25,857 nt of DNA, taken from IMG/VR virus record IMGVR_UViG_3300030109_003902, positions 1-25,857 of that record; one strand, 5' to 3'. Below the pieces are notes generated by a model, which was not told the origin of the DNA, did not search any database, and was given only the letters and a program-made list of their open reading frames with translations. This document shows positions 502 to 22,426 of this stretch, piece after piece (positions within the stretch are counted from its first letter, which is position 1; every line of letters begins with the position of its first letter). Made by a program: the position numbers and the translations under genes. Source of the stretch: a virus.

Positions 502-1125
502 ATGGCGACCGGCGACACCAAGCTATCCATTTGCAGCGATGCACTAATCATGCTGGGGGCAAGCCCCCTCTCTTCATTTTCAGAAGGTTCGGACGCAGCA
601 CAGATTTGCGACCGGCTCTACGACGACATTAAATCCACATTAACAGTTATGTACCCCTGGGGCTTTTCGCAGAAAAAAACCCAGTTGGCACGTTTATCTG
701 ACGCGCCGGCCAGTGAGTGGGAATACGCATATGCGCTACCAGCCGACAATATCGGGTCCGGTGTAGTTGCGCTTTTTACCAGCAGCGCGGCAGGCTCTCG
801 GCCTGTGGCTGATGGTTGGGAAATTTACGAACGTAACGTGCTTACAAATCACACTGAGGTGCATGTTGACTACCAATTTGACGTAAGCGAAGGCGTGATG
901 CCCTCTTACTTTGTGCAGCTTTTGAAATACTGGATGGCGTGGCACATTGCTGAAACGGTCACTGATCAGATTAGCAAGGCACAATATTATCAGCTGCAGG
1001 CCTGCGGCAATCCGAGCGAAAATATGCGCGGTGGTATGTTCCGCGTGTGCTGTCAAATTGACGGCGGGGCAAAGCCGCCACAAACGATTGAAGATTTTGA
1101 CCTGATAAGTACGAGGCTTTCGTGA
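502..1125 (+). CDS. Tail adaptor / tail tubular protein A-like (T7 gp11-like)
   Basis: Encodes 207 residues, close to the 196 of T7 gp11. The ATG at 502 is chosen because the longer frame back to 490 runs into the terminator T-tract and adds only a few residues. The sequence has the features of the gp11 adaptor family: an N-terminal helical part beginning SICSDALIMLGASPLSSF, a YPWGF motif, a YALPAD motif, and a C-terminal helical segment with YFVQLLKYWMAWHIAETVTD. The protein would form the ring joining the portal to the tail nozzle. Its stop overlaps the GTG of the nozzle gene by four bases (GTGA), the usual arrangement for gp11 and gp12. Confidence 0.8.
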   Translation: MATGDTKLSICSDALIMLGASPLSSFSEGSDAAQICDRLYDDIKSTLTVMYPWGFSQKKTQLARLSDAPASEWEYAYALPADNIGSGVVALFTSSAAGSRPVADGWEIYERNVLTNHTEVHVDYQFDVSEGVMPSYFVQLLKYWMAWHIAETVTDQISKAQYYQLQACGNPSENMRGGMFRVCCQIDGGAKPPQTIEDFDLISTRLS

Positions 1126-3326
1126 GCCGGGTCGTTAGAATACAGACAAATTTTTCGAGCGGAGAAATAGATCCATTGCTGCGGTCGCGCATTGATTTGC
1201 AGCAATATTATAACGCCCTCGAAACGGCTGATAATGTGTTCTGCCTTCCTCAAGGCGGGGTGAAGCGGAGGGACGGATTAAAGTTTGTGTATCAGCTGCC
1301 GAGCGCCGCTAGCCCGCAGTCTGGTGTGCGTACAATCCCTTTCGAGTTCAGCGCGTCCGACTCTTATATGTTTGTGCTGACGGCAGGCCGAATATATGTG
1401 TTTCGGAATCAGGCTTTGGTTACAAACATCAACGGGACCGGAAACGACTTCATAGCGGCAACTTCAATCACCGGCGCTATGTTGAGCAAAATTCGTTATG
1501 CACAGTCTGCCGACACCATGATCCTGGTGCATGAGGATCTACCGCCGCAAAAAATTGTGCGCGGAACGGACCACGATAAATGGACAATCTCAACGCTCAG
1601 TTTTACCAATCCGCCTAAACATGCGTTCACGCTGAACACAACAAATCCGGCGGCAGACATTACCCCGGACGCAGCGGTGAACACGATCAAGGTTACAGCC
1701 AGCGCGTCAATCTTCCACAGCGGCGAAACAAACACCGCGCAGGCCGGCGCGTCTGCGACAATTACACTTCACTCGGGCGCAAGCGCCACAAATGACATTT
1801 ACAATGGCTCGACCATACGCATAACCGGCGGAACCGGCAGCGGGCAAAAGCGCATCATTAGCGACTATGTGGGCTCGAGCAAAGTGGCCACGGTGAGCGT
1901 TGCCTGGGCGACCCAGCCGGATGCGACCAGCACCTTCACAGTCGATAGCCACGTTGGGCAATACATCAATGTAAACGACAGCTTTGGGCGTTTGCGAATT
2001 ATCGCAGTTGACAGCGCAACCGTTGTTAGGTGTTTTGCTGAAATCGGTTTGTTTGATACCACCGCCGTTACCAATGGCAACTGGGAGCTTGAACTCGGCT
2101 ATGAAGACGCCTGGAGCAGCGACCGGGGCTACCCAGTAAGCACCACCTTTCACGAGGGCAGGCTGTTTTTCGCGGGCAGCAAAGGATTGCCCACAACATT
2201 TTGGGGCTCTGTAGTAAACAACTTTTTCGATTTTGAGCTTGGCGAAGGGTTAGACGACCAGGCGCTGATCGCGTCGATCACTACCGCTAGCCTTAATCAA
2301 ATTGTTGATATTTTCGCCGGTCGTGACTTGCAGATTTTCACCACTGCAGGCGAGTTCTTCATTCCGCAATCAGCGCTTGACCCAATCACGCCATCAAATC
2401 TTGCGGTAAAATCGGGAACTCGTAACGGCACAAAATCCGGCGTCCCTGTAGTTGGTCTAGATTCCGGCACAATATATGTGCAGCGCCTTGGTAAGACATT
2501 AAATGAAATGGTGTTTACGGACGCGGAACTTAGTTACACAACCGCAGCTGTTTCCATGCTGAGTGGTCATTTATTAAAAACGCCAATTGATATGGCAATC
2601 CGCCGCGCAACAAGTACGGAAGAAGCCGACAGACTATTCATCGTCAACGGCGGCGATGGCACAATGACATGCTTTAGTTTGTTGCGGTCGCAGCAAGTTG
2701 TGGCGCCAAGCAGCCTAACAACGACCGGGCAATTTCAATCCGTTGGTGTCGACGTTGATACAGTCTACACGGTGGTCAAGCGAACCGTTAATAGCGCTGA
2801 TGTGTACTATGTCGAGGTCTTTGACAACACGCTGCACACCGACAGTGCCGTCTATTCAGCGTCTGTCGCCTCAACGGGCGCAGCAACGCACCTCGAGGGT
2901 GTAGCCGTCGATGTAATCGTTGATGGCAATGTACAATCTCAAAAAACCGTTGCTAGCGGATCGATCACATTTGATCGTGCGTCGGCTAGCAATTTTGAAA
3001 TCGGTATTCCTTTTGAGATTACTGTCAAGACAATGCCCTGTGAGCCGCGCCTGGCGTCTGGAAATTTAAAGGGTTTCAAGAAACGGATCCTCGAGGTCAA
3101 CGCGGAAGTATTTCAGAGCCAGGCGATGAGCGTCAATGGTCAGCTAGTAGCGTTCAGACAGTTTGGCGAGGATGTGCTGGATAGTTCTGTATCAAAATTT
3201 ACCGGGGTGAAAAAGGTCGGGCCGTTACTTGGCTTTACCGATGAGGGCGCAATAACGGTGGGCCAGACTGTGCCCCTCGATCTAACGCTGCTGGCCCTGG
3301 ATTATAAAGTGAGTGTAGGCCAATGA
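1122..3326 (+). CDS. Tail nozzle / tail tubular protein B-like (T7 gp12-like)
   Basis: Encodes 734 residues; T7 gp12 has 794. It starts with GTG overlapping the stop of the adaptor gene. The N-terminus (QTNFSSGEIDPLLRSRIDLQQYYNALETADNVF followed by GGVKRRDGL, here given in two parts) is the hallmark of this family. The rest is a long beta-rich protein, with YEDAWSSDRGYPVSTTFHEG and the downstream RLFFAGSKGLPTTFWGS segment also typical. It would form the distal tail tube of the short podovirus tail. Around residues 190-260 lies a Ser/Thr/Ala-rich insertion with beta-repeat character. Expression is probably coupled to both neighbours, since both ends overlap (the 3' end through ATGA). Confidence 0.85.
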   Translation: MSRVVRIQTNFSSGEIDPLLRSRIDLQQYYNALETADNVFCLPQGGVKRRDGLKFVYQLPSAASPQSGVRTIPFEFSASDSYMFVLTAGRIYVFRNQALVTNINGTGNDFIAATSITGAMLSKIRYAQSADTMILVHEDLPPQKIVRGTDHDKWTISTLSFTNPPKHAFTLNTTNPAADITPDAAVNTIKVTASASIFHSGETNTAQAGASATITLHSGASATNDIYNGSTIRITGGTGSGQKRIISDYVGSSKVATVSVAWATQPDATSTFTVDSHVGQYINVNDSFGRLRIIAVDSATVVRCFAEIGLFDTTAVTNGNWELELGYEDAWSSDRGYPVSTTFHEGRLFFAGSKGLPTTFWGSVVNNFFDFELGEGLDDQALIASITTASLNQIVDIFAGRDLQIFTTAGEFFIPQSALDPITPSNLAVKSGTRNGTKSGVPVVGLDSGTIYVQRLGKTLNEMVFTDAELSYTTAAVSMLSGHLLKTPIDMAIRRATSTEEADRLFIVNGGDGTMTCFSLLRSQQVVAPSSLTTTGQFQSVGVDVDTVYTVVKRTVNSADVYYVEVFDNTLHTDSAVYSASVASTGAATHLEGVAVDVIVDGNVQSQKTVASGSITFDRASASNFEIGIPFEITVKTMPCEPRLASGNLKGFKKRILEVNAEVFQSQAMSVNGQLVAFRQFGEDVLDSSVSKFTGVKKVGPLLGFTDEGAITVGQTVPLDLTLLALDYKVSVGQ

Positions 3327-3928
3327 GTGGATTAGAGACATCAACCATACTTATGCTTGTTGGCGCTGGAAGCACGGCGGCGGGCGCTGCCAGCACAATA
3401 CGGGCCGGGCATCTTCAATCCGCCATGTACGGCGCCCAAGCTGACCAAACCCGCGCACAAGGGCGGTCCCAGGTTCTTAAAGCCCGGCAAGAGGCTTTGC
3501 AGCACCGGGAAAAGGGCCTGCAAGTGCTTGACCAGATGCGGCGAACCGGAGCCACAATCAATGCCCGTGGCGCAGCAAATGCCATAAATCCGTTTGCCGG
3601 ATCCACTGGCAATCTAATGACCGTCAACCTCAAGGAAGGCTTTGAGGACTTCTCGACGACAAAAACCAACCGTCTGATCGCCGAGGATAATATGGTGATT
3701 ATGCAGAAGTCTGCAGAGCGCCAGGCCTCTATCTACGGACTAGCCGCAGGACAGGCAAAGTCTAGCGCGTATGCGTCGGCATTCATGCAAATCGCGCAAA
3801 GCGCAGCCATGATGGGCATGAGCGGTTTCGGTGGCGCAAATTCGTTAGCCGGACCCACGACAGGCGTACCAGGCGTACCAGTAAGCACCGGCCAGGGCGG
3901 CTATACCCCCACTTCGGCGGTAATTTAA
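3323..3928 (+). CDS. Internal virion protein B-like (T7 gp14 position equivalent)
   Basis: Encodes 201 residues; T7 gp14 has 196. It overlaps the nozzle gene by ATGA. The N-terminus carries a small-residue hydrophobic stretch (LMLVGAGSTAAGAASTI, about residues 10-26). A long Gln/Arg/Ala-rich helical region follows (about 35-130), and the C-terminus is rich in Gly, Met and Pro. This matches the architecture of gp14-type ejection proteins, which form a pore in the host outer membrane at DNA entry. Assignment is from size, composition and order between nozzle and a gp15-like gene rather than a catalytic motif. Confidence 0.65.
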   Translation: MSGLETSTILMLVGAGSTAAGAASTIRAGHLQSAMYGAQADQTRAQGRSQVLKARQEALQHREKGLQVLDQMRRTGATINARGAANAINPFAGSTGNLMTVNLKEGFEDFSTTKTNRLIAEDNMVIMQKSAERQASIYGLAAGQAKSSAYASAFMQIAQSAAMMGMSGFGGANSLAGPTTGVPGVPVSTGQGGYTPTSAVI

Positions 3929-6115
3929 ATGGCTATTTATCCAACATACAAGCGGCAGCTAATTACGAATGCCAACATTGCTGCGCCTTCCAATATTGAT
4001 TTTGCCGCAACGCGAGAAGCAATCCGAGGGGCAAACCAAACCAAGGAGGCAGCGGCCCGCGTCACGAATTTTGCATTACGCAAATACGATGAATCAATGC
4101 AGTTTGCCGGCGCTCAAGCTGGCGCCGAAGCCCCGCAAGAAACTTTAAAATCAATGCGCGGCAGTACGCCTATAACAACTTTCGATAGGGCTGCGTATGC
4201 TTCGGCGGTCCAGGTTGGTTCTGTGCAGATTGAGGCAGAAGCCCGGGAAACATTTACCAAGCTGCATTTAGACGCAAAGAAAAACAAGACTCCGCCGGAT
4301 GTTTTGCAAAGTCAAATACAATCCGTAATTGATGGCTATGGTAGCTCATTAAATGACCTAGACCCTTTAGCAGCTGAAAAGCTACAAGCGAGACTTTCCG
4401 GTTTAGGTCGCGGCATATTTTTAGACCGCAGCGACGACTATCTAAAAGAACAGCAAAAAATATTAGACGGCAAAGCGGTGAGTTTGCTTGACAGTTACGT
4501 CGAACAAGCGGCCAGACTAGGATCCGGCAATTCGGCAACTAAAGAAAAAGACCATACGAAGCTGCGAGAAGATCTAACCGAAAACTTAAAATTGTTTGGC
4601 ACTGATCCGGTCAAAATACAAAGGAGCCTTATACAACTTAGTGACTCTTTTTATAAATCCCGTGTGTTTAACAACATGGAACGCGCTCAAGAAAAAGGAA
4701 CGCTACCGCAGTATTTAAAAAAGTTTAAAGCTGATGCTCGTAAAGGCGCAGGCCTGGCTAAAGGATTAACCACAAATCAAATTCAATCACATATTAGAAG
4801 CGTCAACGTTAGAATAAATAACGAAGGAGTTTTGCAACGTAGAGCCGCCGCAAACTTGAAAAAAGAACTGACGGCAGCGGAAAACATTTTAGAGAAAGGC
4901 GGTAATGTTAGCGACAGCGATTTAGAACAACTGAGCAATGTTGCCAAAGGTTTGGGCGATGGGCAGCTTGTGAAAGCAGCTAAAGACTTGCAGGCATTGC
5001 AAGCGGCTGTCAAAGACATCACAAAGGACGGGCTTTCAGCGACAGATACTTATGCCAATATGTTAGAGGTAATAAGGAACAGAGATAAATTAGAAAATAA
5101 AACTACAGATCTATTTAACCTAAAACTTGAAAAATTATTGCGCCGATCCGCCACGGCAATAGAGCAAAAAATCCTTAAAGATCCTTTAGGGTTTTCGTAT
5201 GGGCAAAAGGGCCAATTGCCCCCGCGTGTAGATGTTTTTGATGTAGACTCACTAAAGGAGCATTTTGCAGAAGTTGCGGAAATACAACTTTTCAATGGTG
5301 TGCCTGTGACGCATGTAGGCAAGCAGTTAGCGGATAGCCTCAAGCCGTTATTCGCTAGTCAAAATTTAAATGATCTCGAAGGCCAAACCCAAGTATTGCA
5401 AAACATTGCGACGGCGGTTGGCCCTCAACAAGCCAGCAATGTTTTTAAACATTTAGACATTGGGCCAGATTCACGCGAACTATCAAATGTAACCGTTTTA
5501 GGCAATGTAGACCTCACAAGAGAATATTTAATCGGTCGTTTTGCATTCAAAGAAGGGGCGCGACTTGATGAAATCGCAGAGAAAAAGCAAGATTTTGATT
5601 TAGGGTTTGGCAAAGCATTTAGCAAACGCCCCGCAGATGCTGCCGCTGTTTTTGAAGCATCAATGAAAATTGCAATTGCAAGAGGAGTGGCGCAAGAAAA
5701 TAGTATTTCTAAGTCAGACAAAATGTTGACAGATATACAACACGAACTTGTCGGCGGCTCGACAAATAACGGTGTAGAGTATGGCGGTTTTGTTGAGGCA
5801 GATAGTTCGCAAGGTGGGCAAGTTTTAATTTTACCGTCTACTATGAAACGCAACAAGGCGGCTTTAGAAGAAAGAATGGACAATCTGCAGCCCGAAGATA
5901 TTGGCTTGGCAGGGGCTGCGCCTATAGGTGATCCTGATGATTTGCCGGGCGTGTTTCCTATTTATGAGACAAGCACGGGGCCGAAGCCGATGCAGATCGA
6001 AGATGTCCGAGATGCTACTTTGATGCCGTATCTGGACGGCCGCTACTTTATAAAGGTTCGTGGTATCTCCGTAGTAAATAATCTCGGCGAGCCCTACGTT
6101 CTTGACCTCCGATGA
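3929..6115 (+). CDS. Internal virion protein C-like (T7 gp15 position equivalent)
   Basis: Encodes 728 residues; T7 gp15 has 747. The ATG directly follows the stop of the gp14-like gene. The protein is almost wholly alpha-helical by composition, with long charged heptad-like stretches (about residues 100-440) and no catalytic motif that I can see. The N-terminus (AIYPTYKRQLITNANI) contains a short polar motif. It is probably one of the core proteins ejected into the cell envelope with the genome. The coding sequence is visibly richer in A and T than the genes before it, and Lys and Asn codons are common. This may reflect composition demand or a different history. It overlaps the next gene by ATGA. 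Confidence 0.6.
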   Translation: MAIYPTYKRQLITNANIAAPSNIDFAATREAIRGANQTKEAAARVTNFALRKYDESMQFAGAQAGAEAPQETLKSMRGSTPITTFDRAAYASAVQVGSVQIEAEARETFTKLHLDAKKNKTPPDVLQSQIQSVIDGYGSSLNDLDPLAAEKLQARLSGLGRGIFLDRSDDYLKEQQKILDGKAVSLLDSYVEQAARLGSGNSATKEKDHTKLREDLTENLKLFGTDPVKIQRSLIQLSDSFYKSRVFNNMERAQEKGTLPQYLKKFKADARKGAGLAKGLTTNQIQSHIRSVNVRINNEGVLQRRAAANLKKELTAAENILEKGGNVSDSDLEQLSNVAKGLGDGQLVKAAKDLQALQAAVKDITKDGLSATDTYANMLEVIRNRDKLENKTTDLFNLKLEKLLRRSATAIEQKILKDPLGFSYGQKGQLPPRVDVFDVDSLKEHFAEVAEIQLFNGVPVTHVGKQLADSLKPLFASQNLNDLEGQTQVLQNIATAVGPQQASNVFKHLDIGPDSRELSNVTVLGNVDLTREYLIGRFAFKEGARLDEIAEKKQDFDLGFGKAFSKRPADAAAVFEASMKIAIARGVAQENSISKSDKMLTDIQHELVGGSTNNGVEYGGFVEADSSQGGQVLILPSTMKRNKAALEERMDNLQPEDIGLAGAAPIGDPDDLPGVFPIYETSTGPKPMQIEDVRDATLMPYLDGRYFIKVRGISVVNNLGEPYVLDLR

Positions 6116-9100
6116 CAATTTTAGCGCCAGCCGAGGGCGACCTTGTAAGAACTGATTTTAGGCCTATCACTGGCCCAGAAACCGGCTTTCTCAAAAATTA
6201 TAGAGTAGCCCGTGAGCGCACGGCGCTGGCCGGGGGGCCGGGCATGGTTTTAGAAATATTGACCAGGCAAATAAACCCATTCGTAAAAGCCTATGAAGAG
6301 CGTACCGGCAAAAAGGTGCGGAGGGGCGTAAATAAAGAGCCGAAATTTGAAAGGGGTGAAGATGGCGTTTTTTACGTTTCAAACGAAAATTACGAGTATC
6401 AAGCCCTGCAAGATACGGTAATAGAATTGGGTAAAGAAGATCCGAATATGCTTACTTGGGAAGAGATTACCGAAAATATACCTAAAATGATGCGTGAGGC
6501 CGAGGCGCAATATTTCGACACCGTGGGCCGGCAAACAACTTTAGGCCTTATAGGAGAGATTTCGGGAGACGTTGTTGAAGACATTAACCAGCTAAAATAT
6601 GCTCCAGCAGAATTGGCGTTTTGGCTAATAGGAAAAAGAGCGGGCCCTGGTTTTAAACCATTAGTTAAAGCGGCAATGATGGACAGTGCTGCAGCGGCTA
6701 TGGCCGTTGGATCACGGCAGCCGGCAATAAAATATTTTAGAGAAAAACATGGCCTCGAATATACAACTGAGACAGCGTTAAAGAATGTTGGCGGTGCGGC
6801 GCTTGCAGCGTTTGGGTTGCGCGTCGGAGTGCAAGGAACGGCAAGAGGTGTGCGTCGGGTAGGTGGTGCAGCCACTGATGCCGGGATGCGGCGGTTTGCC
6901 CCGAGCGCAGCGTTTGGGCGCGAACTAAATAAGGCTATTAACGGCGCAGACATGGCAGCCGTTGATGAAGTTTTGCGGCGGGCAAGTTCTCGGGATTTGT
7001 TTAACATGCAAAAATCGCTTGAGGACTCGGGAGTACAGTTTACCCCAGAGATTAAAGGTGCAGCCCAGTTACTAGAGCGCGATGCCGATATTGTGGAAAG
7101 CAACCCATTTCGCGATGATCAAGACATTGCCGCTGTAGCAGAACACGAGCAAAGAATGGACGCTGCAATTGATGCACACCTCAATAATACCAATCAAGTT
7201 GATTTACCGCCTTCTTCGTTGCCCGTTAAAGAAACCGGCGTTCATCATTTCGATAATTTAAACGGCACGCTCCAGCGCATAGACCTAGACAAAGTCGAAG
7301 TTGACGCAAAGCTGTTTCAATTTAAAGAGGGCGGCGATGAGTTCGGTGTCACTGATCGCCTTGCTGGCGTGGAAAAATGGGATCCAATCAAGGCGGGCAC
7401 TGTAACAATTTACGAATTTATGAATGGGCGGCAGTTTATTGCCGATGGGCATCAGCGGTTGGGGCTAGCGAAAAGCATACGATCAAAGGACCCTGCCCAA
7501 GACGTAAACCTTTATGGCTTTGTTTTGCGAGAAGCTGATGGGATTTCGCCGGATCAAGCGCGGGCTATTGCGGCTATGACCAATATAGCACAGGGCACAG
7601 GCAGCTATCTCGACGCTGCAAAGGTGTTGCGCGTCAATCCCTCTGCAATATCCGAGCTACCACAACAATCGCAGCTAGTGCGAGTAGCGGGCGATTTAGT
7701 CGAATTAAGTGATGAGGCGTTTGGCTTAGTAGTTAATGACGTTGTAAAGCCTACCTATGCCGCGATTGTCGGACGCCTAGAAAAAGACGCCGCCAAGCAA
7801 ATGGCTATCATGCGCCTCATAGCAAAGACAGAGCCTGCAAACATTACTCAGGCCGAGGCCATAGTACGCCAGGCGCGAGATATAGAATTCACAAAAACGA
7901 CACAAGACTCGCTATTTGGCGAGGAGGTCATGTTGGAAAGTTTGTTTGCTGAACGGGCCAAGGTGCTTGATGAGGCATTGAAAATTTTGCAGCGCGATCA
8001 AAACACGTTTGCAAACCTTGTGCGGAACGAAAAGACCATTGCCGAGGGTGGCAACAAACTCGAAACCGAAAGCAACAAGCAAAGGGCAGAAACCAATGGC
8101 CAGGCGAAACAGATCATACAGACGCTCTCAAGCAGAACGGGAGCTATCTCGAGCGCTCTCAGCGCAGCGGCTAAACGATTTAAAGAAACCGGAAAAGCAG
8201 CGCCCGCCGCTCGGGACTTCGCTGAATTTGTCAGAGGAGGAATTGAACGCGGCGATTTCTCTAGGGTATCAGCTGAGCCACCAATCCGCACTTTCGAGCC
8301 TCCAGCGCAAAATGATCAGTTGGCAGCAGGGCCAGCAGCGGAACAAATAGACGCCTTTGCTACCCCTATTGGGCCAAAGGCCGATGCAGCTTTAGACCGC
8401 TTAGAGAATGAGTTTGTAGAAAGCATCACGGCGCAGTTAAGCGCTGACACAAATCGAGAGGTTGCAGCAGAGATCGCGCAAAAGAACGCGCAAAAGATTG
8501 TAGAGATGGGACCAGGCGCGAAGAAAAAGCGCTTAGTGCTAGCACAAGATCTAAGCGAGGCGGAGCTTGAAAACCTTGCTAGCATACTTCATTCGCGCCA
8601 GGCGTATGCGTCTATCGACGATATCATGGCCCGCAATGAAGCATTCAACGTCGAGCTAAATGCAGCGGTGCAGAAAGCCGCTGGCGAACATAAGGTTGAT
8701 TATTTCGCGGGGCCGCTTAAAACGCGAGATCGAGTTGAGGCAAAGATTAATGATAAATACGTCGGTGAATTAAATCGCATTTCCGACGCATCACGGGCAA
8801 CGATTGCGGTATCAACGCCAGACGAAGCCGACGCGTTTATTAAGTCACTTGCAAAAAAATATCACGTTGTTGATGAGGGATATCAAGCAGCCGGCACGAC
8901 TTCATATTTCGACAAAAAATTAATGGTGATCGATAAAGACGGCACTGTTGGCGAAGTAAAAATTATTGAACGCAATCTGTATGACGCAAGCACAATGCAA
9001 GGTGGGCATGGCCTTTATAAAATTGAGCGCGGCGATCTTGACACAGCCGCCATAATTGCAGAATTGCCGGATCCAGAAATGCGGGCGCGGCTTGAGCGTT

Positions 9101-9639
9101 TAAGCGGTGATGAGCTTATTGAGGCAGCAAATCGAGAACAAGCGCAACTATATACCGCTGCCCGCGCTCAAATGGGTTCGGAGTTTTCAGAAATTGCCGA
9201 CAGCGTACTAGGCTCAATGCCCGCTACCACAAGGCGCGTTTCAAATTCGGATGCGGTAAGCTCTGGTGTGCGCGTATCTGCTAAAAGCTCACGCGCAGAC
9301 ATTTCGGCCCAGGATTCCCGTGTATTAGACCAGGAAAACGCCTTGCCGTCATTGCGTAGTACGGCGGGAAATCTGCCCTCAAGTGAAAAAAATCTCATAG
9401 ATGAAACCTCTACTACTAATGAGAAAATTGCAAGAGAAATAGTCGAGTCAGGCGAACAATTCCTTGACGAAGGCGGCGGCGCAATGGACATGGTTCGCGC
9501 TCAAAATACTTTGCTCGAGGCTATGGTTCCAACTGGCCGAGTGGTTGATGGCGAGGCCGAACGTGTAACGGCCCGCAGCTTGTTTGAAGAAATTGAGAGC
9601 GACAAATCAATGCTAAATAGACTTAAGGATTGCGTCTGA
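6112..9639 (+). CDS. Large multidomain ejection/polyvalent protein with ParB-like and RelA/SpoT-like domains
   Basis: Encodes 1175 residues in the slot of the T7 gp16-type large internal protein. Residues 1-330 are helical with a short Ala/Gly-rich stretch near 225-245. Residues about 380-540 look like a ParB/DdrB-type nuclease fold: an IDLDKVEVDAKLFQFK entry, then FIADGHQRLGLAKS near residue 445 (the DGHxR motif), then a helical segment. Residues about 860-975 resemble the RelA/SpoT synthetase fold: GPLKTRDRVEAKI, DASRATIAVSTPDEA, then GEVKIIERN and a late GGHGLYKIER. These domains are known from phage polyvalent proteins that enter the host with DNA (Iyer, Burroughs and Aravind). Activity is inferred; a complete set of (p)ppGpp synthetase residues is not obvious. 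The last 150 residues are low-complexity and charged. It overlaps the next gene by one base (TGATG). Confidence 0.65.
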   Translation: MTILAPAEGDLVRTDFRPITGPETGFLKNYRVARERTALAGGPGMVLEILTRQINPFVKAYEERTGKKVRRGVNKEPKFERGEDGVFYVSNENYEYQALQDTVIELGKEDPNMLTWEEITENIPKMMREAEAQYFDTVGRQTTLGLIGEISGDVVEDINQLKYAPAELAFWLIGKRAGPGFKPLVKAAMMDSAAAAMAVGSRQPAIKYFREKHGLEYTTETALKNVGGAALAAFGLRVGVQGTARGVRRVGGAATDAGMRRFAPSAAFGRELNKAINGADMAAVDEVLRRASSRDLFNMQKSLEDSGVQFTPEIKGAAQLLERDADIVESNPFRDDQDIAAVAEHEQRMDAAIDAHLNNTNQVDLPPSSLPVKETGVHHFDNLNGTLQRIDLDKVEVDAKLFQFKEGGDEFGVTDRLAGVEKWDPIKAGTVTIYEFMNGRQFIADGHQRLGLAKSIRSKDPAQDVNLYGFVLREADGISPDQARAIAAMTNIAQGTGSYLDAAKVLRVNPSAISELPQQSQLVRVAGDLVELSDEAFGLVVNDVVKPTYAAIVGRLEKDAAKQMAIMRLIAKTEPANITQAEAIVRQARDIEFTKTTQDSLFGEEVMLESLFAERAKVLDEALKILQRDQNTFANLVRNEKTIAEGGNKLETESNKQRAETNGQAKQIIQTLSSRTGAISSALSAAAKRFKETGKAAPAARDFAEFVRGGIERGDFSRVSAEPPIRTFEPPAQNDQLAAGPAAEQIDAFATPIGPKADAALDRLENEFVESITAQLSADTNREVAAEIAQKNAQKIVEMGPGAKKKRLVLAQDLSEAELENLASILHSRQAYASIDDIMARNEAFNVELNAAVQKAAGEHKVDYFAGPLKTRDRVEAKINDKYVGELNRISDASRATIAVSTPDEADAFIKSLAKKYHVVDEGYQAAGTTSYFDKKLMVIDKDGTVGEVKIIERNLYDASTMQGGHGLYKIERGDLDTAAIIAELPDPEMRARLERLSGDELIEAANREQAQLYTAARAQMGSEFSEIADSVLGSMPATTRRVSNSDAVSSGVRVSAKSSRADISAQDSRVLDQENALPSLRSTAGNLPSSEKNLIDETSTTNEKIAREIVESGEQFLDEGGGAMDMVRAQNTLLEAMVPTGRVVDGEAERVTARSLFEEIESDKSMLNRLKDCV

Positions 9640-12149
9640 TGAGCCTGCGAGAGTGCATAATTAACGGTGTAAAAGAAGGCGCAATTACTGAAGCGCGAGG
9701 CAAAGAGGCAGAAGATCTATTTGATGATTTCCTCGCCCGCAGCGCCGGCGATGAAGCTGCTGCAGCCACAAAGACTTTTGATCAATTGAAGCACCAGGCC
9801 GCTCGACGACGCCATCTAAACATGCTGCGCGTCAAGACGTTCAATAGAGCCCGCACAGAGATGGGCAATTTTGTGCCGACATTCCGAGCATTAATGCTTA
9901 AAGGAAAAAAGCTAACTTTGGCGGATGTTCCGCGTCCAGGCAAATATATGCAAAGCCTCGTAGAAGGTGGCGAAGGCACTGCAAAAATAACTAAAAATTT
10001 ATACGGAGTTTACCACGCAACTCGTAGCAATGCCCTGGCAATGTTTGATGAGGGCTTGTACCAAAACCGGCAAAAGATTTTTACGCGAAAAGGTAAGGCC
10101 GGCGCACATCACCTTCTTATGGAGGTGTTTGGCGAAGACAGCGGCAATGCGGCGGCTAAAGTTGTTGCAGACCAATGGAGGCAGACCTCTGAATATTTGC
10201 GCCTACGCGCCAACCAGGCAGGCATGGCTATACCTACGCGAATAGATTGGCACCTACCACAGAGCCATGACGCTGTTTTAGTATCGAAGGTTGGGGCCAA
10301 AGGCTGGAAAGACGCAATCCGCGAGGATCTCGATTTAGATAAAATGATCAACGAGCAAACTGGCAATAAGTTTACTCCAGAGGAACTAGAGTTTGCACTT
10401 AATGAAGTTTATCGAACCATCACCGAAAATGGCCTTAACAAAATGAAAGAGGGCATGACCGGCGCAGGCAAGGCTCTGGCAAATCGCCGCCAGGATCACA
10501 GGTTTTTGGTTTTTGAAACTCCAGAGGGCTGGATGCGCTACCAGGAGCGATTTGGCGACCCTGATGTGTTCGGCACAATGATGAGCCATATCGAAACCAT
10601 GAGCCGCGACATTGCGATGCTCGAGGTGCTAGGGCCAAACCCAAACACAACAATCTCAGCGCTTAAAATTGAGGCGGAAAAAATGGCGCGGCAGCACAAT
10701 GTGAAAAATGCGAACACACGCGCCACAGACATGCTCGGCAATGATCTCGCAAGGTTTGAGTCGATGCTTGATATTTTCACAGGCGAAGCCATGACCGTTG
10801 CCAATGTTACGCTTGCCAATACAGCATCAGGATTACGCAATTTAGGAACAGCCTCACTGTTAGGGTCCACCGCTCCTATAGCTTTAGCAACTGATCTAGG
10901 CACAATGCGAATGGCAGCACAGATGATTGATATGCCTGTTGCCAAAATTATGTCTGGGCTGTTTAAACAATTAAAAGATGTGAAAAAGAAAGAACGCGCA
11001 AGGTTTGGTGTGCGCCTTGGTATAGCTGCCGAGAACTGGATAAGCCGCAGCCACGCGCAATCTCGATATTTTGGCGAAGTAGTCGGACCAAATCTCTCAA
11101 TATTTGCGAGTGATTCGGTGCTGCGGGCTACTGGTTTAAGTAGTTGGACCCAAGGAGCCCGCCAAGTATTTGGCATAGAATTTTTAGGGCATTTAGGGGA
11201 TCTAAAAACTAAAAAATATAATGCTCTTCCGGCGCACACTCGAGACACTTTAAAAAAGTATGAAATTACTGAAGACCGCTGGAACATTATCCGCAAAACC
11301 GAAATGGAAGTTTATAAAGGCGTTGATTTTGTGCGGCCTTTAAATATTGAAGCTAGAGATGATCTAGCACCGGGTTTAGGCAGGGAAATTAGCGTTGCAC
11401 TGCAAACATTAATTCACAACGAAACGAACCGGGGCATACCGCAAGCCACTATTAGGTCGCAAAGCACGCTGAAGGGTAATGCAAAACGCGGAACTTTTTC
11501 GGGTGAAATGATTAACAGTGCAGCACAATTTAAAAGTTTTCCCGTGAGTATCATGCAGGGAAATTTACTCCGCTACATGAGCGTAGAGGGTTGGGCAAAC
11601 AAAGCGAGATGGACAGCAGACTTTTTAATAACGGCCACAATTGCAGGCGCTCTGGGTTATCAAGCCAGGCAAATTGCCTCTAATCGGGATCCCGAAGACA
11701 TGACCACCAAAGAATTTTGGGCTAGGGCTATGCTAACCGGCGGCGGTCTTAGCATTGTGGGTGATTTTATGTTTGGAAATGTCAACCGTTATGGAGGTGG
11801 GCTAGCAACCACTTTTCTAGGGCCGTCAGTTGGCAGCCTTGATATGTTCCGAAATTTAACAGTTGGCAACGCGCTGCAAGCTGCGTCTGATGAGTCAACT
11901 AACTTTAATCGAGAGCTAATAGATTTTGTGGTTCGTAATTTACCGGGCCAAAATATGTGGTTCTCGAGAGCAGCCTTTGATCGCCTGGTAGTAGATCAAC
12001 TCAAAATTGCTGCAGATCCGCGCTCCTACAGAGAATTTAGGCGCAAGGAGCGGAGGCTATATAAAAACACAGGGCAGCGATTGTGGTGGCGTTCCGGTAA
12101 TATGTCACCTGATCGCTTCCCAGATTTCGGCGCAGCGCTCGGACAGTGA
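9639..12149 (+). CDS. Second large internal virion / ejection protein
   Basis: Encodes 836 residues. The ATG at 9639 overlaps the previous stop and has an AAGGA site about 10 bases upstream, so it is preferred over the non-ATG start at 9630. The protein is largely helical. Conserved-looking stretches are RIDWHLPQSHD (about residue 200) and the FLVFETPEGWMRYQERFGDP region (about 290). A more hydrophobic area lies near residue 390-420 (LANTASGLRNLGTASLLGST) and another near 665-685 (ADFLITATIAGALGYQA), possible membrane-inserting segments. I see no lysozyme or transglycosylase active site, unlike the N-terminus of T7 gp16. Probably it works with the 1175-residue protein in DNA ejection. Assignment rests on order and size; the precise family is not recognised. 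Confidence 0.55.
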   Translation: MSLRECIINGVKEGAITEARGKEAEDLFDDFLARSAGDEAAAATKTFDQLKHQAARRRHLNMLRVKTFNRARTEMGNFVPTFRALMLKGKKLTLADVPRPGKYMQSLVEGGEGTAKITKNLYGVYHATRSNALAMFDEGLYQNRQKIFTRKGKAGAHHLLMEVFGEDSGNAAAKVVADQWRQTSEYLRLRANQAGMAIPTRIDWHLPQSHDAVLVSKVGAKGWKDAIREDLDLDKMINEQTGNKFTPEELEFALNEVYRTITENGLNKMKEGMTGAGKALANRRQDHRFLVFETPEGWMRYQERFGDPDVFGTMMSHIETMSRDIAMLEVLGPNPNTTISALKIEAEKMARQHNVKNANTRATDMLGNDLARFESMLDIFTGEAMTVANVTLANTASGLRNLGTASLLGSTAPIALATDLGTMRMAAQMIDMPVAKIMSGLFKQLKDVKKKERARFGVRLGIAAENWISRSHAQSRYFGEVVGPNLSIFASDSVLRATGLSSWTQGARQVFGIEFLGHLGDLKTKKYNALPAHTRDTLKKYEITEDRWNIIRKTEMEVYKGVDFVRPLNIEARDDLAPGLGREISVALQTLIHNETNRGIPQATIRSQSTLKGNAKRGTFSGEMINSAAQFKSFPVSIMQGNLLRYMSVEGWANKARWTADFLITATIAGALGYQARQIASNRDPEDMTTKEFWARAMLTGGGLSIVGDFMFGNVNRYGGGLATTFLGPSVGSLDMFRNLTVGNALQAASDESTNFNRELIDFVVRNLPGQNMWFSRAAFDRLVVDQLKIAADPRSYREFRRKERRLYKNTGQRLWWRSGNMSPDRFPDFGAALGQ

Positions 12150-16291: not shown

Positions 16292-16654
16292 GTGGACGGT
16301 TCAATCGATATCCGTCTAGTGATGACGGTCCTTGGAATGGTCTGCAGTGTTGCCGGCGCCGCCGCAGTCGCCAGGGTACAGATCAGAGAGATATCAGCGA
16401 AGCTACAGGACATTGAAATACGGCTGCGGCAGATGGATAGCCGTGCCGATAAGCTATGGACAATTACAGAAACACAAGAAACCAGGCTGGACGTTCTGGC
16501 AAAAATGGCCGCGCCGGAGCTTTTGAGGCGTGACCACATGGCTATGGCCACGCTGCAATCCGATGTGCGCCAATTGAGGAAGGATGTTGACCACCAGCTA
16601 CATATCCATAATTCCAAACATATCCCCGTTTCAGATACGAGAGTAGGTGATTAA
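16292..16654 (+). CDS. Membrane-anchored coiled-coil protein, possibly spanin-like
   Basis: Encodes 120 residues from a GTG just after the preceding stop. One transmembrane segment lies near residues 8-28 (VMTVLGMVCSVAGAAAVARV). A charged heptad-patterned helix follows (about 30-105), and the C-terminus is His-rich (HQLHIHNSKH). A single N-terminal anchor plus a long coiled coil fits inner-membrane spanins, and other small phage membrane proteins look the same, so the role is inferred from the lysis-block context. Its stop TAA overlaps the ATG of the endolysin gene by one base. Confidence 0.5.
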   Translation: MDGSIDIRLVMTVLGMVCSVAGAAAVARVQIREISAKLQDIEIRLRQMDSRADKLWTITETQETRLDVLAKMAAPELLRRDHMAMATLQSDVRQLRKDVDHQLHIHNSKHIPVSDTRVGD

Positions 16655-17052
16655 TGTCTAAACACTTCAAACTCGAGGAATTCGCGTGTAGCAGCAGCGG
16701 CCTTTCGCTAATGAACGAGCAATTTCTACAGGCGCTCGAGGAGATCCGCGAGAGGCTTGGCGAACCAATGGTAATCACTTCCGGCTATCGCTCAGACCAG
16801 CACCCGATTACTCAGGCAAAAATTGCCAAGGGCGCAAAGCATGGTGGCGCTCATCACCTGGGCCTTGCCGCTGATGTCGGATGTGCCGGCCCAAAGGCAA
16901 TGAAGATTCTTGCGCTGGCAATTCAGAACCCGGCGATCACTGGCGTAGGAGTTAAGCAAAACGGCCCGTGGAATAGCCGCTTTATCCATATAGACGCCGT
17001 GCCTCGCGACAACAATTTCGGGCTTACCCGCCCAGCACTATGGAGCTATTAG
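16654..17052 (+). CDS. Endolysin: M15 family peptidoglycan peptidase
   Basis: Encodes 132 residues, the normal length of a single-domain M15A peptidase. An AGGTGA site precedes the ATG. The zinc-binding and active-site signatures are present: SGYRS at residues 43-47, the HxxGxAxD motif with His67, Gly70, Ala72 and Asp74, and HxD at His112-Asp114. Family members cut D-Ala or L-Ala/D-Glu bonds of the peptidoglycan stem peptide. There is no signal peptide, so release should need the holin encoded directly downstream. This is the phage lysis enzyme by motif and place. Confidence 0.9.
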   Translation: MSKHFKLEEFACSSSGLSLMNEQFLQALEEIRERLGEPMVITSGYRSDQHPITQAKIAKGAKHGGAHHLGLAADVGCAGPKAMKILALAIQNPAITGVGVKQNGPWNSRFIHIDAVPRDNNFGLTRPALWSY

Positions 17053-17053
17053 G

Positions 17054-17473
17054 ATGATAGGAGCAATACTACCAATCGTAGCGCCTCTGATCGGCGATGT
17101 GGTGAAACGCATTTTGCCGGAGGATAAAGATAAGGCCGCCGATATCGAGCGCGAACTTAACATGGCGCTGATGCAAAACAATGCGGCGATTGAGCAGGCG
17201 GCTGCGTCGGTCATTAATGCGGAAGCAAAATCCGAGCACAAAATTACCGCGACCTGGCGCCCAATTTTAATGCTCACAATAACTGCCATCGTGGGCTGGA
17301 ATTTTTTAGTCGCGCCCTTAGCGGAGCTTGCTGTTCGATTAACGACTGGCAGCGACTTACCTTTGAGCATCCCATTACCAGAACAACTTTGGAACCTATT
17401 AATGATTGGCGTCGGCGGCTATGTGGTCGGCAGAAGTGGAGAAAAAATTGCAAAGAATTTCGGCGATAAGTAA
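17054..17473 (+). CDS. Holin, GTA-type three-TM family
   Basis: Encodes 139 residues; GGAG lies eight bases before the ATG. An N-terminal hydrophobic helix (AILPIVAPLIGDVV) is followed by a charged helical region with DKDKAADIERELN. Then come the TWRPILMLTITAIVGWNFLV segment and a last helix LWNLLMIGVGGYVVGRSGE. The WRP and VGGYVVGRSGEK features are those of the GTA_holin_3TM/Phage_holin_3 family common in alphaproteobacterial phages and gene transfer agents. It would permeabilise the inner membrane to release the M15 endolysin encoded one base upstream. Confidence 0.85.
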   Translation: MIGAILPIVAPLIGDVVKRILPEDKDKAADIERELNMALMQNNAAIEQAAASVINAEAKSEHKITATWRPILMLTITAIVGWNFLVAPLAELAVRLTTGSDLPLSIPLPEQLWNLLMIGVGGYVVGRSGEKIAKNFGDK

Positions 17474-19335: not shown

Positions 19336-19519
19336 CTGTAGTCACTCCATAGTTAAACATGATTAAAACTGATGAGGTTTTAGTGACTACAAACTAGATA
19401 AGTGGTTGTTTTTACTGGGTTGTTACAGTCCTACCGGGGTCGCCACTACCCTAATATTACTTAATAAAAACAACGCATTAGTATTCTGTAGTCACTTTGT
19501 TGTTTTAGCTGTAGTCACT
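19336..19519. other. attP: Probable attP region with integrase arm-type repeats
   Basis: The segment at the 3' end of the integrase gene holds four copies of an 11-bp motif CTGTAGTCACT or its core. Direct copies lie at 19336-19346, 19486-19496 and 19509-19519. An inverted nine-base copy (AGTGACTAC) lies at 19382-19390. The last copies overlap the end of the integrase coding region and include its TGA. They flank the tRNA-like core described separately. Repeated short sites on both sides of a core are the known layout of tyrosine-integrase attP sites. That these are bound by this integrase is inference. Confidence 0.6.
19428..19445 (+). other. Candidate att core resembling a tRNA 3' end
   Basis: The 18 bases GTCCTACCGGGGTCGCCA read as the end of a tRNA: two T-loop bases, five T-stem bases (CCTAC), seven acceptor bases (CGGGGTC), discriminator G and CCA. 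The bases just upstream (GGGTTGTTACA) do not pair to make a T-stem, so this is not a whole tRNA. Phages that integrate into tRNA genes carry exactly such a 3' fragment in attP. I cannot name the tRNA. The reading depends on the host carrying a tRNA with acceptor 5' strand GACCCCG. Confidence 0.45.
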
Positions 19520-20604
19520 TTTAGTTTTGCAAGCCCTCCTATTGCAAGTTTTTTGTTGTCTGCCATCTCTGTGTAAAGTTGCGCGGTGGCCGTATCATTC
19601 CAGCCAAATATAGCTAGCAACTCTTTTTCCGTCGCGCCGTTTTCTGCGAGCATTGCCGCGCCTGCCTTACGCACTCCGTGAGGAGATAGCCCTGCCGGCA
19701 TATTTGCCGCTCTGCAAATCTTTCTAAACCAATTCCCAAAACTATCTGGGCTTTCAAACGGCTTGCCACTTCGGGTAGCTAGCCAGGTTAATCCGACAAT
19801 GGTGCTAGCTTCTTGGTATGCCTCAATGGCTTCAGCCAACTCAGGTCGCATTGGTATAATTATGGTTTTAGGATGCGCCTGGCCGGCGGCGTCAACCTTA
19901 TCGCGGTTCTTCTTTTGAACGAAAGTGATAAGCCCATCTTCTACATTTCTCGGACCTAAATAAATAACATCGCTGCGTCTTGCGCCTGTACAAATCAATA
20001 ACATCATTGCCAAATACTCTCGGGTGCCAAGCGGATAAAATTCTAAAAACTGTTGCCGCTCAGTTTCCGACCAGGTTCTATGCCCAGTGCTGCCATCTGG
20101 TTTTGTTTTGATTGGCATTTTAGAAACGCCCGCGCATGGGTTATGTCTTATAATTTTTTGCTGAACCGCCCAATTGAATAAAGCATGTAAATCCTTCAGC
20201 CGGTTATTGGCTGCTGATGGTAGGTTGCGTTTTTTATCTCTGATTCTTTCGACGCCAATTGCATCAAGCTGGTCAATGTTCAAATGTCCTACGCTATCGA
20301 GGTACTGCTCAAAGCGTTTTTGCTTGTTTGTTTTTGTGACCGGGGCAAATGCTGACCACCTATCTGATTGCTTATATTTTGCATACAACCAGTTTAGGCT
20401 TCGCTCCAAAACAATACCCGTCTCCGCGCTTAGTTCCGCTTCTTGTTTCATTTGAGCGGCAGCATACTGCATCATAAACTCGGGGCTGTTCACTGGCCGC
20501 GCGGTCAACTCGATACCCTTCAGCTTGCGGTTTCTGCGATAATAAATTTTGAGATTGCCGCGCCGGTCTTTGTACTGATTTAAATATTTTAGCTCTACCT
20601 TCAT
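19492..20604 (-). CDS. int: Tyrosine recombinase (phage integrase)
   Basis: Encodes 370 residues with the full tyrosine recombinase layout. The N-terminal part (about 1-65) contains an arm-binding-like beta region (KYLNQYKDRRGNLKIYYRR). The core-binding domain spans about 65-160. In the catalytic domain, Arg209 lies in TGARRSD, a Lys at 231/232 in FVQKKN, His309 and Arg312 in SPHGVRKA, Trp335 in FGWND, and the nucleophile Tyr344 in LYTEM. All catalytic residues are present, so the enzyme should be active. The start ATG overlaps the stop of the excisionase-like gene (ATGA). It is expected to recombine attP, just beyond its 3' end, with a host site. Confidence 0.92.
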   Translation of the reverse strand: MKVELKYLNQYKDRRGNLKIYYRRNRKLKGIELTARPVNSPEFMMQYAAAQMKQEAELSAETGIVLERSLNWLYAKYKQSDRWSAFAPVTKTNKQKRFEQYLDSVGHLNIDQLDAIGVERIRDKKRNLPSAANNRLKDLHALFNWAVQQKIIRHNPCAGVSKMPIKTKPDGSTGHRTWSETERQQFLEFYPLGTREYLAMMLLICTGARRSDVIYLGPRNVEDGLITFVQKKNRDKVDAAGQAHPKTIIIPMRPELAEAIEAYQEASTIVGLTWLATRSGKPFESPDSFGNWFRKICRAANMPAGLSPHGVRKAGAAMLAENGATEKELLAIFGWNDTATAQLYTEMADNKKLAIGGLAKLKVTTAKTTK

Positions 20605-21056: not shown

Positions 21057-21716
21057 TTATTTTTTTTTGTGATCATCGTCGACCAGCTGGAGCATCGTAT
21101 GTAACCGGCTTGGTTTGGCGCGGCGAAATTTTTCGTCGTCTTTTTGGAGAAGCGCCGTGTCGAGTAAGCTATAAAAGGAGTGCAGCATCAAATAGAGCTG
21201 GTAGGTTTGTTCGTTTAATAGCAAACGATGCAGATTTTCGAGCTGATGATGCAGGGCTGCCTGTGTGTATTCATAAACGCCTTTTTTCGTCTTGGTAAAA
21301 ACACCTTCTCCCACGGCGTCAACAAAATACCGATTCAATGTTCTTTGGCTGATTTCAAATTTTTCTGCTTGTTGCAAAACCGAGCCAGCGGTGATTTCTT
21401 CATCTTCGCAATACATCATCAATATAACGCGGCTGATCGTAAGAAATTTTGTATTCCGGCCCGCGAAACTCATAAATTTATTAACTGGTGCATGTCTCCG
21501 GCGTTGTGCGACCGACAAATTATAGCTTGTGGTTGCATGGTGCATCTTCCATCTCAGCTTTTTAACAATAGCAAAGATTTCCGCCAGATGATCGTTGTCA
21601 ATATCCGCATATTTGTTTGGCATTTCCACGCTGTTAAGCAAAGCTTCGCGGGCTTCCACCCCGGCCTTCTTTTTTAACAGCTCACTCATCACTCCATCAG
21701 TAATCTTGTCACTCAT
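21057..21716 (-). CDS. Winged-helix DNA-binding protein next to the palindrome array
   Basis: Encodes 219 residues. The ATG at 21716 overlaps the serine recombinase stop by ATGA and is preferred to an upstream frame starting at 21782. Residues about 92-155 look like a MarR-type winged helix: LTISRVILMMYCEDEE, a recognition-helix region EISQRTLNRYFVDAV, then a wing with GVFTKTKKGVYEY. Residues 1-90 are basic and helical (QRRRHAPVNKFM), and the C-terminal 65 residues are helical, probably a dimer surface. It ends in a Lys tract. A dimeric winged-helix protein five bases from six palindromic sites is a natural candidate to bind them, as repressor, partition or replication factor. That link is inference; the family is not firmly recognised. 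Confidence 0.6.
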   Translation of the reverse strand: MSDKITDGVMSELLKKKAGVEAREALLNSVEMPNKYADIDNDHLAEIFAIVKKLRWKMHHATTSYNLSVAQRRRHAPVNKFMSFAGRNTKFLTISRVILMMYCEDEEITAGSVLQQAEKFEISQRTLNRYFVDAVGEGVFTKTKKGVYEYTQAALHHQLENLHRLLLNEQTYQLYLMLHSFYSLLDTALLQKDDEKFRRAKPSRLHTMLQLVDDDHKKK

Positions 21717-22426
21717 TTGATTTTCCTTCCTATCAATTTTTCGTACCTGGTAATCACGTTTTTGACGTTCGACGGGTGCCACTCAGTGTTTTTCCTCGCC
21801 GTCTTCTGGCCTCGGGCCATCAGGCCTTTGGCAATTTGCTGTAGGGTTTCGCACCCATATTTTTGCAATTCCTCGATAAGCGGACCAACCTCAAGCGCGA
21901 ATTTATCAGCCTTGGCTATGCGTTCTTTGCTTGCCAGCTTGCTAATCTTTTTCGGATCCCGGGCGCCCAGCTTGACGCCTCGCGCTTTCGCCGCAGCCAA
22001 CGCGTCTTTTGTCCGTGCCCCGATAATGTTGGCCTCATACTCGGCAACATTCGCCATCAGCTGTAGAATAAATTTATTCTGGGCCGGGTTGGACATCTGC
22101 GGAATGTCACAGAAAATAATGTCGACATTGCTGTCTAATATTCGCGTCAGGAAACCCAGGTTACGGGTGATCCGGTCAACCTTCGCCGCGACCAGGGTGG
22201 CCCCCTCGGCCTGGCACACCTCGATTGCCTTTTGAAGTTCGGGCCGGTCGCGCATAACTTTTCGGCCAGACTCTATTTCCGTGAACTCACCGATTAGCTC
22301 CCAATCGCCGCCGTTTAAATGCTGCCTCACGGTTTCCTGTTGCGCCTCGAGGCCAAGGCCTGATTGCCCCTGGCGCTGCGTACTCACGCGGTAGTAGGCA
22401 ACGAATTTCCCGCTATGTGGTGTCAT
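21713..22426 (-). CDS. Serine recombinase (resolvase/invertase family)
   Basis: Encodes 237 residues. The N-terminal catalytic domain is complete: YYRVST with Arg13 and the nucleophile Ser15, then AAKVDRITRN with Asp84, Arg85 and Arg88. A conserved long helix follows (QLMANVAEYEANIIGARTKD, about 120-145). The C-terminal part carries ARGQKTARKNTEWHPSNVKNVI, shown partly, which matches the Gly-x-x-T...W-x-x-x-x-V DNA-binding tail of this family. The enzyme could resolve multimers, invert DNA, or act on the host genome. No pair of crossover sites is identified in the window. It is coupled to both neighbours by ATGA overlaps. Confidence 0.88.
   Translation of the reverse strand: MTPHSGKFVAYYRVSTQRQGQSGLGLEAQQETVRQHLNGGDWELIGEFTEIESGRKVMRDRPELQKAIEVCQAEGATLVAAKVDRITRNLGFLTRILDSNVDIIFCDIPQMSNPAQNKFILQLMANVAEYEANIIGARTKDALAAAKARGVKLGARDPKKISKLASKERIAKADKFALEVGPLIEELQKYGCETLQQIAKGLMARGQKTARKNTEWHPSNVKNVITRYEKLIGRKIK

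Follow-up and report, generated by a model that had tools for sequence, protein, structure and literature searches.

A ParB-like core and an exchangeable enzyme cassette in a putative podophage ejection protein

The stretch of viral DNA analysed here (the window: 25,857 nucleotides, positions 1 to 25,857 of IMG/VR record IMGVR_UViG_3300030109_003902) contains an open reading frame with an ATG start at positions 6112–9639, which encodes a product of 1175 residues; this gene and its features all lie on the plus strand. We consider it reasonably probable that the product is a large ejection (core) protein in the slot of T7 gp16, which carries exchangeable host-arresting enzymes in a probably temperate podophage. 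Predicted folds, conserved motifs, cassette exchange, gene order and the lack of an adjacent immunity gene are observed by sequence or model, and we infer from these the location in the virion, the delivery to the cytoplasm, the catalysis, its acceptor and the benefit to the phage. The conserved part of the protein would comprise a helical N-terminal region and a ParB-like N-domain with a helix-turn-helix (HTH), of which the ParB module probably grips the entering phage DNA in the cell, and an enzyme cassette would sit between this core and a tail of about 50 residues. In this virus the cassette would be a Tas1-like 3'-pyrophosphokinase, probably with ATP as donor and with an adenine nucleotide or another 3'-OH, for example that of a tRNA, as acceptor, whilst sister viruses would have a Zeta-type kinase or another subtype of synthetase in its position, or no cassette at all. 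A few copies would enter with the genome, with the cassette facing the cytoplasm by analogy with T7 gp16, and there the cassette would halt the growth of the host at entry or redirect it; phages would trade cassettes through recombination. In T7, gp16 leaves the particle with the core, and the large C-terminal portion of gp16 has been assigned to the cytoplasm of the host, where it binds DNA (PMC8954989). The (p)ppApp synthetase domains found in phage MuF proteins have been shown to be toxic to E. coli (PMC12226406).

Comparison with relatives places the cassette at about residues 771–1120 (8422–9471), where the synthetase type of this virus is replaced or absent in other members. The sequences split fully after the core (~residue 770) and rejoin at a conserved tail of about 50 residues (residues 1126–1175, 9487–9639, by tail alignment), which all complete proteins share, whichever type of cassette precedes it. 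We examined 96 distinct proteins: a Zeta-toxin kinase is present in 43, synthetase A (the type of the 1175-residue protein) in 34 and synthetase B in eight, whilst ten have no cassette and one is truncated. Synthetases A and B are homologous to each other (P = 2.7e-6) and unrelated to the Zeta type. On a tree of the core the cassette label switches at least 20 times, and the swap can be followed between pairs of viruses. For example, L058 (Zeta) and L065 (synthetase B) share 97.9% DNA identity over 7.7 kb upstream and 98.7% over 4.2 kb downstream, whilst L055 (Zeta) and L057 (synthetase A) share 97.4% over 8.0 kb upstream and 95.9% over 3.4 kb downstream, and in both pairs no DNA match was found across the cassette itself. 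Near-identical flanks around unlike cassettes point to modular exchange, not slow divergence; chimaeric assembly may mimic individual pairs, yet every type of cassette was met repeatedly, in many samples independent of one another. The first-pass annotation, made from the sequence of the window, had named both a ParB-like and a RelA/SpoT-like domain in this product, and both stand, but it had overlooked that the synthetase is an exchangeable cassette.

By sequence, the Zeta cassettes of the relatives belong to the Zeta/PezT toxin kinases: all four of those tested passed the Pfam Zeta_toxin cut-off of 22.3 bits (E = 4e-16 to 2e-18), PezT was matched in the PDB (E = 0.002), the Walker A motif G[PA]PA[AS]GKS is present in the Zeta-cassette sequences spanning that region, and Walker A and a D-x-D are both retained. 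The sequences show a constant carrier with a variable module, as in polymorphic toxin systems, here with a conserved tail after the module; the protein is polymorphic-toxin-like in its modularity but we do not class it as a polymorphic toxin, as it has no adjacent immunity gene. The following gene, which encodes a virion structural protein (phrog_684, 9630–12149, E = 1e-154), begins within the cassette gene, and this overlap measures about 10–13 bases in 68 of the 70 placeable loci; the exceptions are L060, where the overlap is larger (estimated), and Dunaliella viridis virus SI2, which has a gap of 128 bases. There is no room for an adjacent immunity gene because the downstream gene overlaps the stop (69/70 loci), and the L058/L065 pair shows no second exchanged region within its shared flanks. 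Both observations tell against a true polymorphic toxin that would be made late or released at lysis, hit co-infecting phages or neighbours and have its immunity elsewhere, a possibility which the constant carrier and variable effector, as in MuF/Apk2 (PMC12226406), would favour and which we regard as quite improbable.

The cassette of the window contains a predicted RelA/SpoT-type (Tas1-like) synthetase domain at residues 831–1015 (8602–9156; core 831–963), recognised by both sequence and structure matches. Its closest sequence match in the PDB is the (p)ppApp synthetase Tas1, which was recovered with the whole protein as query (residues 834–951, E = 0.0016), with residues 791–1020 alone (phmmer against 6ox6, E = 1.2e-4) and with a six-sequence profile (E = 4.1e-6). 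The next-best PDB sequence matches, to a proteasome beta subunit, were rejected as chance. Structure searches (Foldseek against the PDB, and VIA-align) used an AlphaFold2 (AF2) model of residues 366–1015 built from 62 sequences, with a mean predicted local distance difference test score (pLDDT) of 76.4 and mostly 80–94 in the synthetase part; it replaced a full-length model from 7 sequences that was too poor (pLDDT 48.7). Tas1 was the second top Foldseek match (E = 1e-4), followed by RelA/SpoT chains, and VIA-align of residues 831–1015 found 8vx3, an exported small alarmone synthetase (Z 12.3, root-mean-square deviation (rmsd) 2.8, 159 residues aligned), Tas1 (Z 11.8), RelP/RelQ (Z ~11) and CapRel (Z ~10). 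The model thus gives these residues a small-alarmone-synthetase fold, where the first-pass annotation had placed a RelA/SpoT-like region at about residues 860–975, and the limits are now refined. Pfam RelA_SpoT gave no match at E 1, which we attribute to divergence and not to absence of the domain, in view of the predicted fold.

Motif conservation was scored across 15 diverse synthetase cassettes, and the motifs follow the order syn1–syn5 of RelA/SpoT enzymes, in agreement with the Tas1 alignment. In the syn1-like K870-x-R-x-R-x-x-x-K878 (8719–8745), K870 and K878 are invariant, whilst R872/R874 differ in L060, L083 and L056. The syn2-like D892-x-x-R895 (8785–8796), with the predicted metal-binding Asp, is invariant; where the signature of (p)ppApp synthetases has RxT in syn2, the 1175-residue protein reads RAT (cf. 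RNT in Tas1) and relatives read RGG or RTG. The syn3-like YFDKK at residues 932–936 (8905–8919) aligns as YFD[RK]K in 15/15 cassettes, the syn4-like E948 in GEVKI (8953–8955), the predicted metal-binding Glu, is invariant, and of the syn5-like H966-G-L-Y969 (9007–9018) the Tyr is invariant and the His is kept in most. All five syn motifs, including the putative metal-binding Asp and Glu, can therefore be assigned from the alignment, syn3 as a variant form. Substitution rates indicate that the cassette is under purifying selection, with a ratio of nonsynonymous to synonymous rates (dN/dS) of ~0.3 against the nearest relative, and dN 0.14 and dS 1.2 against the next. It could be argued that the ParB-like and synthetase-like domains are inactive structural leftovers which fill the particle core, given the size and variability of core proteins and the lack of a cassette in some members, but the predicted catalytic residues are invariant across divergent cassettes, Walker A and D-x-D persist in the Zeta cassettes, and selection on the synthetase cassette is purifying, so that we hold this to be very improbable. 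In L036, L038, L060, L083 and L031/L035 the synthetase is preceded by ~95 residues with LLDGNSTYAIA, a stretch that is missing from the 1175-residue protein as a clean ~95-residue difference; it is possibly a second, degenerate ParB-like domain, to which it shows weak similarity (hhalign P = 0.02; Spo0J E = 0.004).

The first-pass annotation had also invoked polyvalent proteins, which are proposed to act early against host defences, and the precedent holds, as DdrB-like ParB and RelA/SpoT domains are listed in phage proteins (PMC5512222). The cassettes might accordingly be counter-defence or metabolic tools, which disable host immunity at entry by flooding or depleting a nucleotide signal, and CapRel-type synthetases, which are phage-host conflict proteins, also align to the fold (Z 10). 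However, our analysis gave no evidence that host defences are countered, and no defence-related partner or target was seen. The synthetase is swapped with a toxin kinase of the Zeta type, and since cell-wall synthesis is what the known relatives of that kinase block (PMC5512222), growth arrest is the better fit; we consider a counter-defence or metabolic use of the cassettes unlikely. The Zeta-type kinase as swap partner points to host arrest, as in our proposal of an ejected, host-arresting enzyme.

Residues 383–593 (7258–7890), the most conserved part of the family, are modelled as a ParB/Noc-type N-domain with an HTH DNA-binding domain. The top Foldseek PDB match of the AF2 model was Noc 7nfu (E = 3.7e-5), with ParB chains lower down, and VIA-align of these residues found Spo0J, Noc and ParB at Z 8–10 (4umk 9.8; 7nfu 9.5), covering both N-domain and HTH, some of these alignments having a high rmsd that presumably results from domain arrangement. 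A DGHQR ParB-type motif had been noted near residue 445; it lies exactly at residues 445–449 (7444–7458), within this fold, and none of its five residues varies among 62 aligned sequences. The position of the GERR-type CTP-binding motif reads ADGHQRLGLAK, akin to the DGH-R forms of ParB-like proteins. The structure search thus recovered both of the folds named by the first-pass annotation, where unrelated folds or unconserved stretches would have argued otherwise, and both stretches are conserved; the DNA nicking that it had envisaged is less likely, since the ParB part models as the N-domain and DNA-binding domain of ParB/Noc clamps. For the curated ddrB-ParB family, no Pfam family matched at E 1, a single structural match in BFVD carries the name DdrB-like (E = 2e-9), and we do not class residues 383–593 as a DdrB-like ParB. 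At least 504 relatives of the ParB core occur on viral contigs, whilst a search of plasmids for such relatives found none. In Ruegeria phage 45A6 (L022, 9805–21543) a protein of 3912 residues includes this core, with 45% identity. PANU01000051.1 (L020), a 12.4-kb contig in a Flavobacteriaceae metagenome-assembled genome, encodes an identical copy of the 1175-residue product; it is doubtful that Flavobacteriaceae are the host, as a misbinned virus contig is possible.

The gene stands fourth in the order tail tube B (phrog_376, 1122–3326, E = 8e-133), gp14-like internal virion protein (3323–3928), gp15-slot protein (3929–6115), the 6112–9639 gene, phrog_684 and fibre, and the stop of the preceding gene overlaps its ATG. 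Tube B lies upstream in 76/82 loci and phrog_684 downstream in 70/82, a comparable gene order is found in SI2, in Prochlorococcus phage P-SCSP1a and in SPN1S, and phrog_684 homologues occupy the same place in SPN1S and SI2. This synteny places the gene, by sequence, in a gp16-type position of an ejection-protein operon and bears out the gp16-like slot that had been claimed for it, whilst the accompanying label of T7-like applies loosely, as the downstream virion gene and the integrase resemble those of temperate podophages of the SPN1S/epsilon15 type. From the gene position, the 1175-residue protein would be located in the virion and ejected. Two genes on the minus strand, a tyrosine integrase (19492–20604, phrog_1, E = 2e-34) and a serine recombinase/DNA invertase-like gene (21713–22426, phrog_125, E = 9e-32), suggest that the virus is probably temperate.

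Several points weigh against an ejected, enzyme-bearing core protein. The slot was assigned by synteny, in which the gp14-like protein gives weak matches (phrog_418, E = 6e-4; Pfam T7_gp14, E = 3e-4, below the cut-off) and the gp15-slot protein, placed by position, has no family match. No similarity to the 1175-residue protein was found in SPN1S gp18, which occupies the same slot, and no T7 gp16 family model in Pfam or PHROGs matched it. The syn3 motif is SxH in (p)ppGpp synthetases and GxN in (p)ppApp synthetases (PMC12226406), and YFD[RK]K (DxK) is neither, so that the product of the synthetase cannot be named. Lastly, the cassette is dispensable, because 10/96 proteins are without one.

ParB and RelA/SpoT domains are known from phage polyvalent proteins, and Zeta kinases from conjugative elements and MuF fusions (PMC5512222). 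Like the protein described here, polyvalent proteins (Iyer et al. 2017, PMC5512222) are large late-gene products which unite ParB-superfamily and RelA/SpoT domains; the present protein differs in its podophage ejection slot, in a ParB part with an HTH as in ParB/Noc, in that we recognised neither a peptidase nor any further polyvalent domain, and in the clean cassette swapped between near-identical viruses. MuF-Apk2 toxins (PMC12226406) likewise join a phage structural carrier to a (p)ppApp-synthetase-type domain, which is C-terminal in MuF-Apk2, and MuF is also fused to Zeta kinases (PMC5512222), comparable to the Zeta cassettes; however, we recognised neither a MuF domain nor neighbouring immunity genes of the iapK/aph1 type, the cassette here is followed by a conserved tail, and syn3 is different. 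Tas1 (Apk1), a type VI secretion system (T6SS) effector of Pseudomonas aeruginosa, is, of the solved structures, the nearest in sequence and one of the nearest in fold, but it has a PAAR domain and T6SS delivery, and the identity is only ~20%. T7 gp16 and podophage ejection proteins (PMC8954989) are alike in their position after the gp14/gp15 slots, their size and the expected cytoplasmic DNA binding, whereas here there is no detectable sequence similarity, no transglycosylase domain was recognised and an enzyme cassette is added. The same ParB-like core occurs in the same slot in gene 21 of P-SCSP1a, although that product has 2571 residues, and in DVVG_00008 of SI2, which is without a cassette; the authors of the P-SCSP1 genomes had no annotation for gene 21 and only speculated on an internal virion protein (PMC9860041). 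In the full texts searched, which include few subscription papers, no description of a podophage ejection protein with swappable enzyme cassettes came to light, and the arrangement appears to be new, though built from known phage domain types. The chances are about even that temperate and related marine podophages have an ejection protein that serves as a carrier for swappable toxins, in which a ParB-type clamp handling the entering genome is fused to a host-arresting alarmone synthetase or Zeta kinase, with recombination between sister phages swapping the enzyme and with no immunity gene.

Should the proposal hold, phages of a widespread type would use their particles to deliver enzymes, and this payload would be swapped on short evolutionary timescales. 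Phages that are near-identical outside the cassette, with a synthetase, a kinase or none, would amount to a natural experiment, and such sister phages could directly reveal the action of virion-delivered effectors in the first minutes of infection. Hundreds of core proteins that now stand as unannotated hypotheticals, among them those of Prochlorococcus phages, would also gain a tentative function, and the proposal points to a role for a ParB-type clamp in genome entry.

In the remainder of the protein, residues 1–370 (6112–7221) are predicted to be mostly helical (low-confidence AF2 model) and are less conserved in the conservation profile of relatives; they form a putative structural or ejection part. 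A conserved helical stretch in the AF2 model follows the ParB-like domain at residues 594–760 (7891–8391). A profile search recovered the C-terminal tail in SI2 (E = 1e-7). A resemblance of the tail to SPN1S gp18 seen by eye was dropped, as it was no better than for shuffled sequences (E = 4.1). No relevant Pfam or NCBIfam family matches the ParB-like or the synthetase domain of the 1175-residue protein, so that both would escape annotation pipelines, and PHROGs matches only residues 392–708, to phrog_10691 (E = 7e-60, function unknown) and phrog_21 (E = 2e-22). The latter is annotated as a portal protein and is matched at its C-terminal end by residues 394–693 (7291–8190), which suggests from sequence that the same ParB-core module is fused to portals in other phages. 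Elsewhere in the window, a holin of the GTA_holin_3TM type (17054–17473, Pfam E = 2e-16) adjoins an endolysin-like gene (16654–17052).

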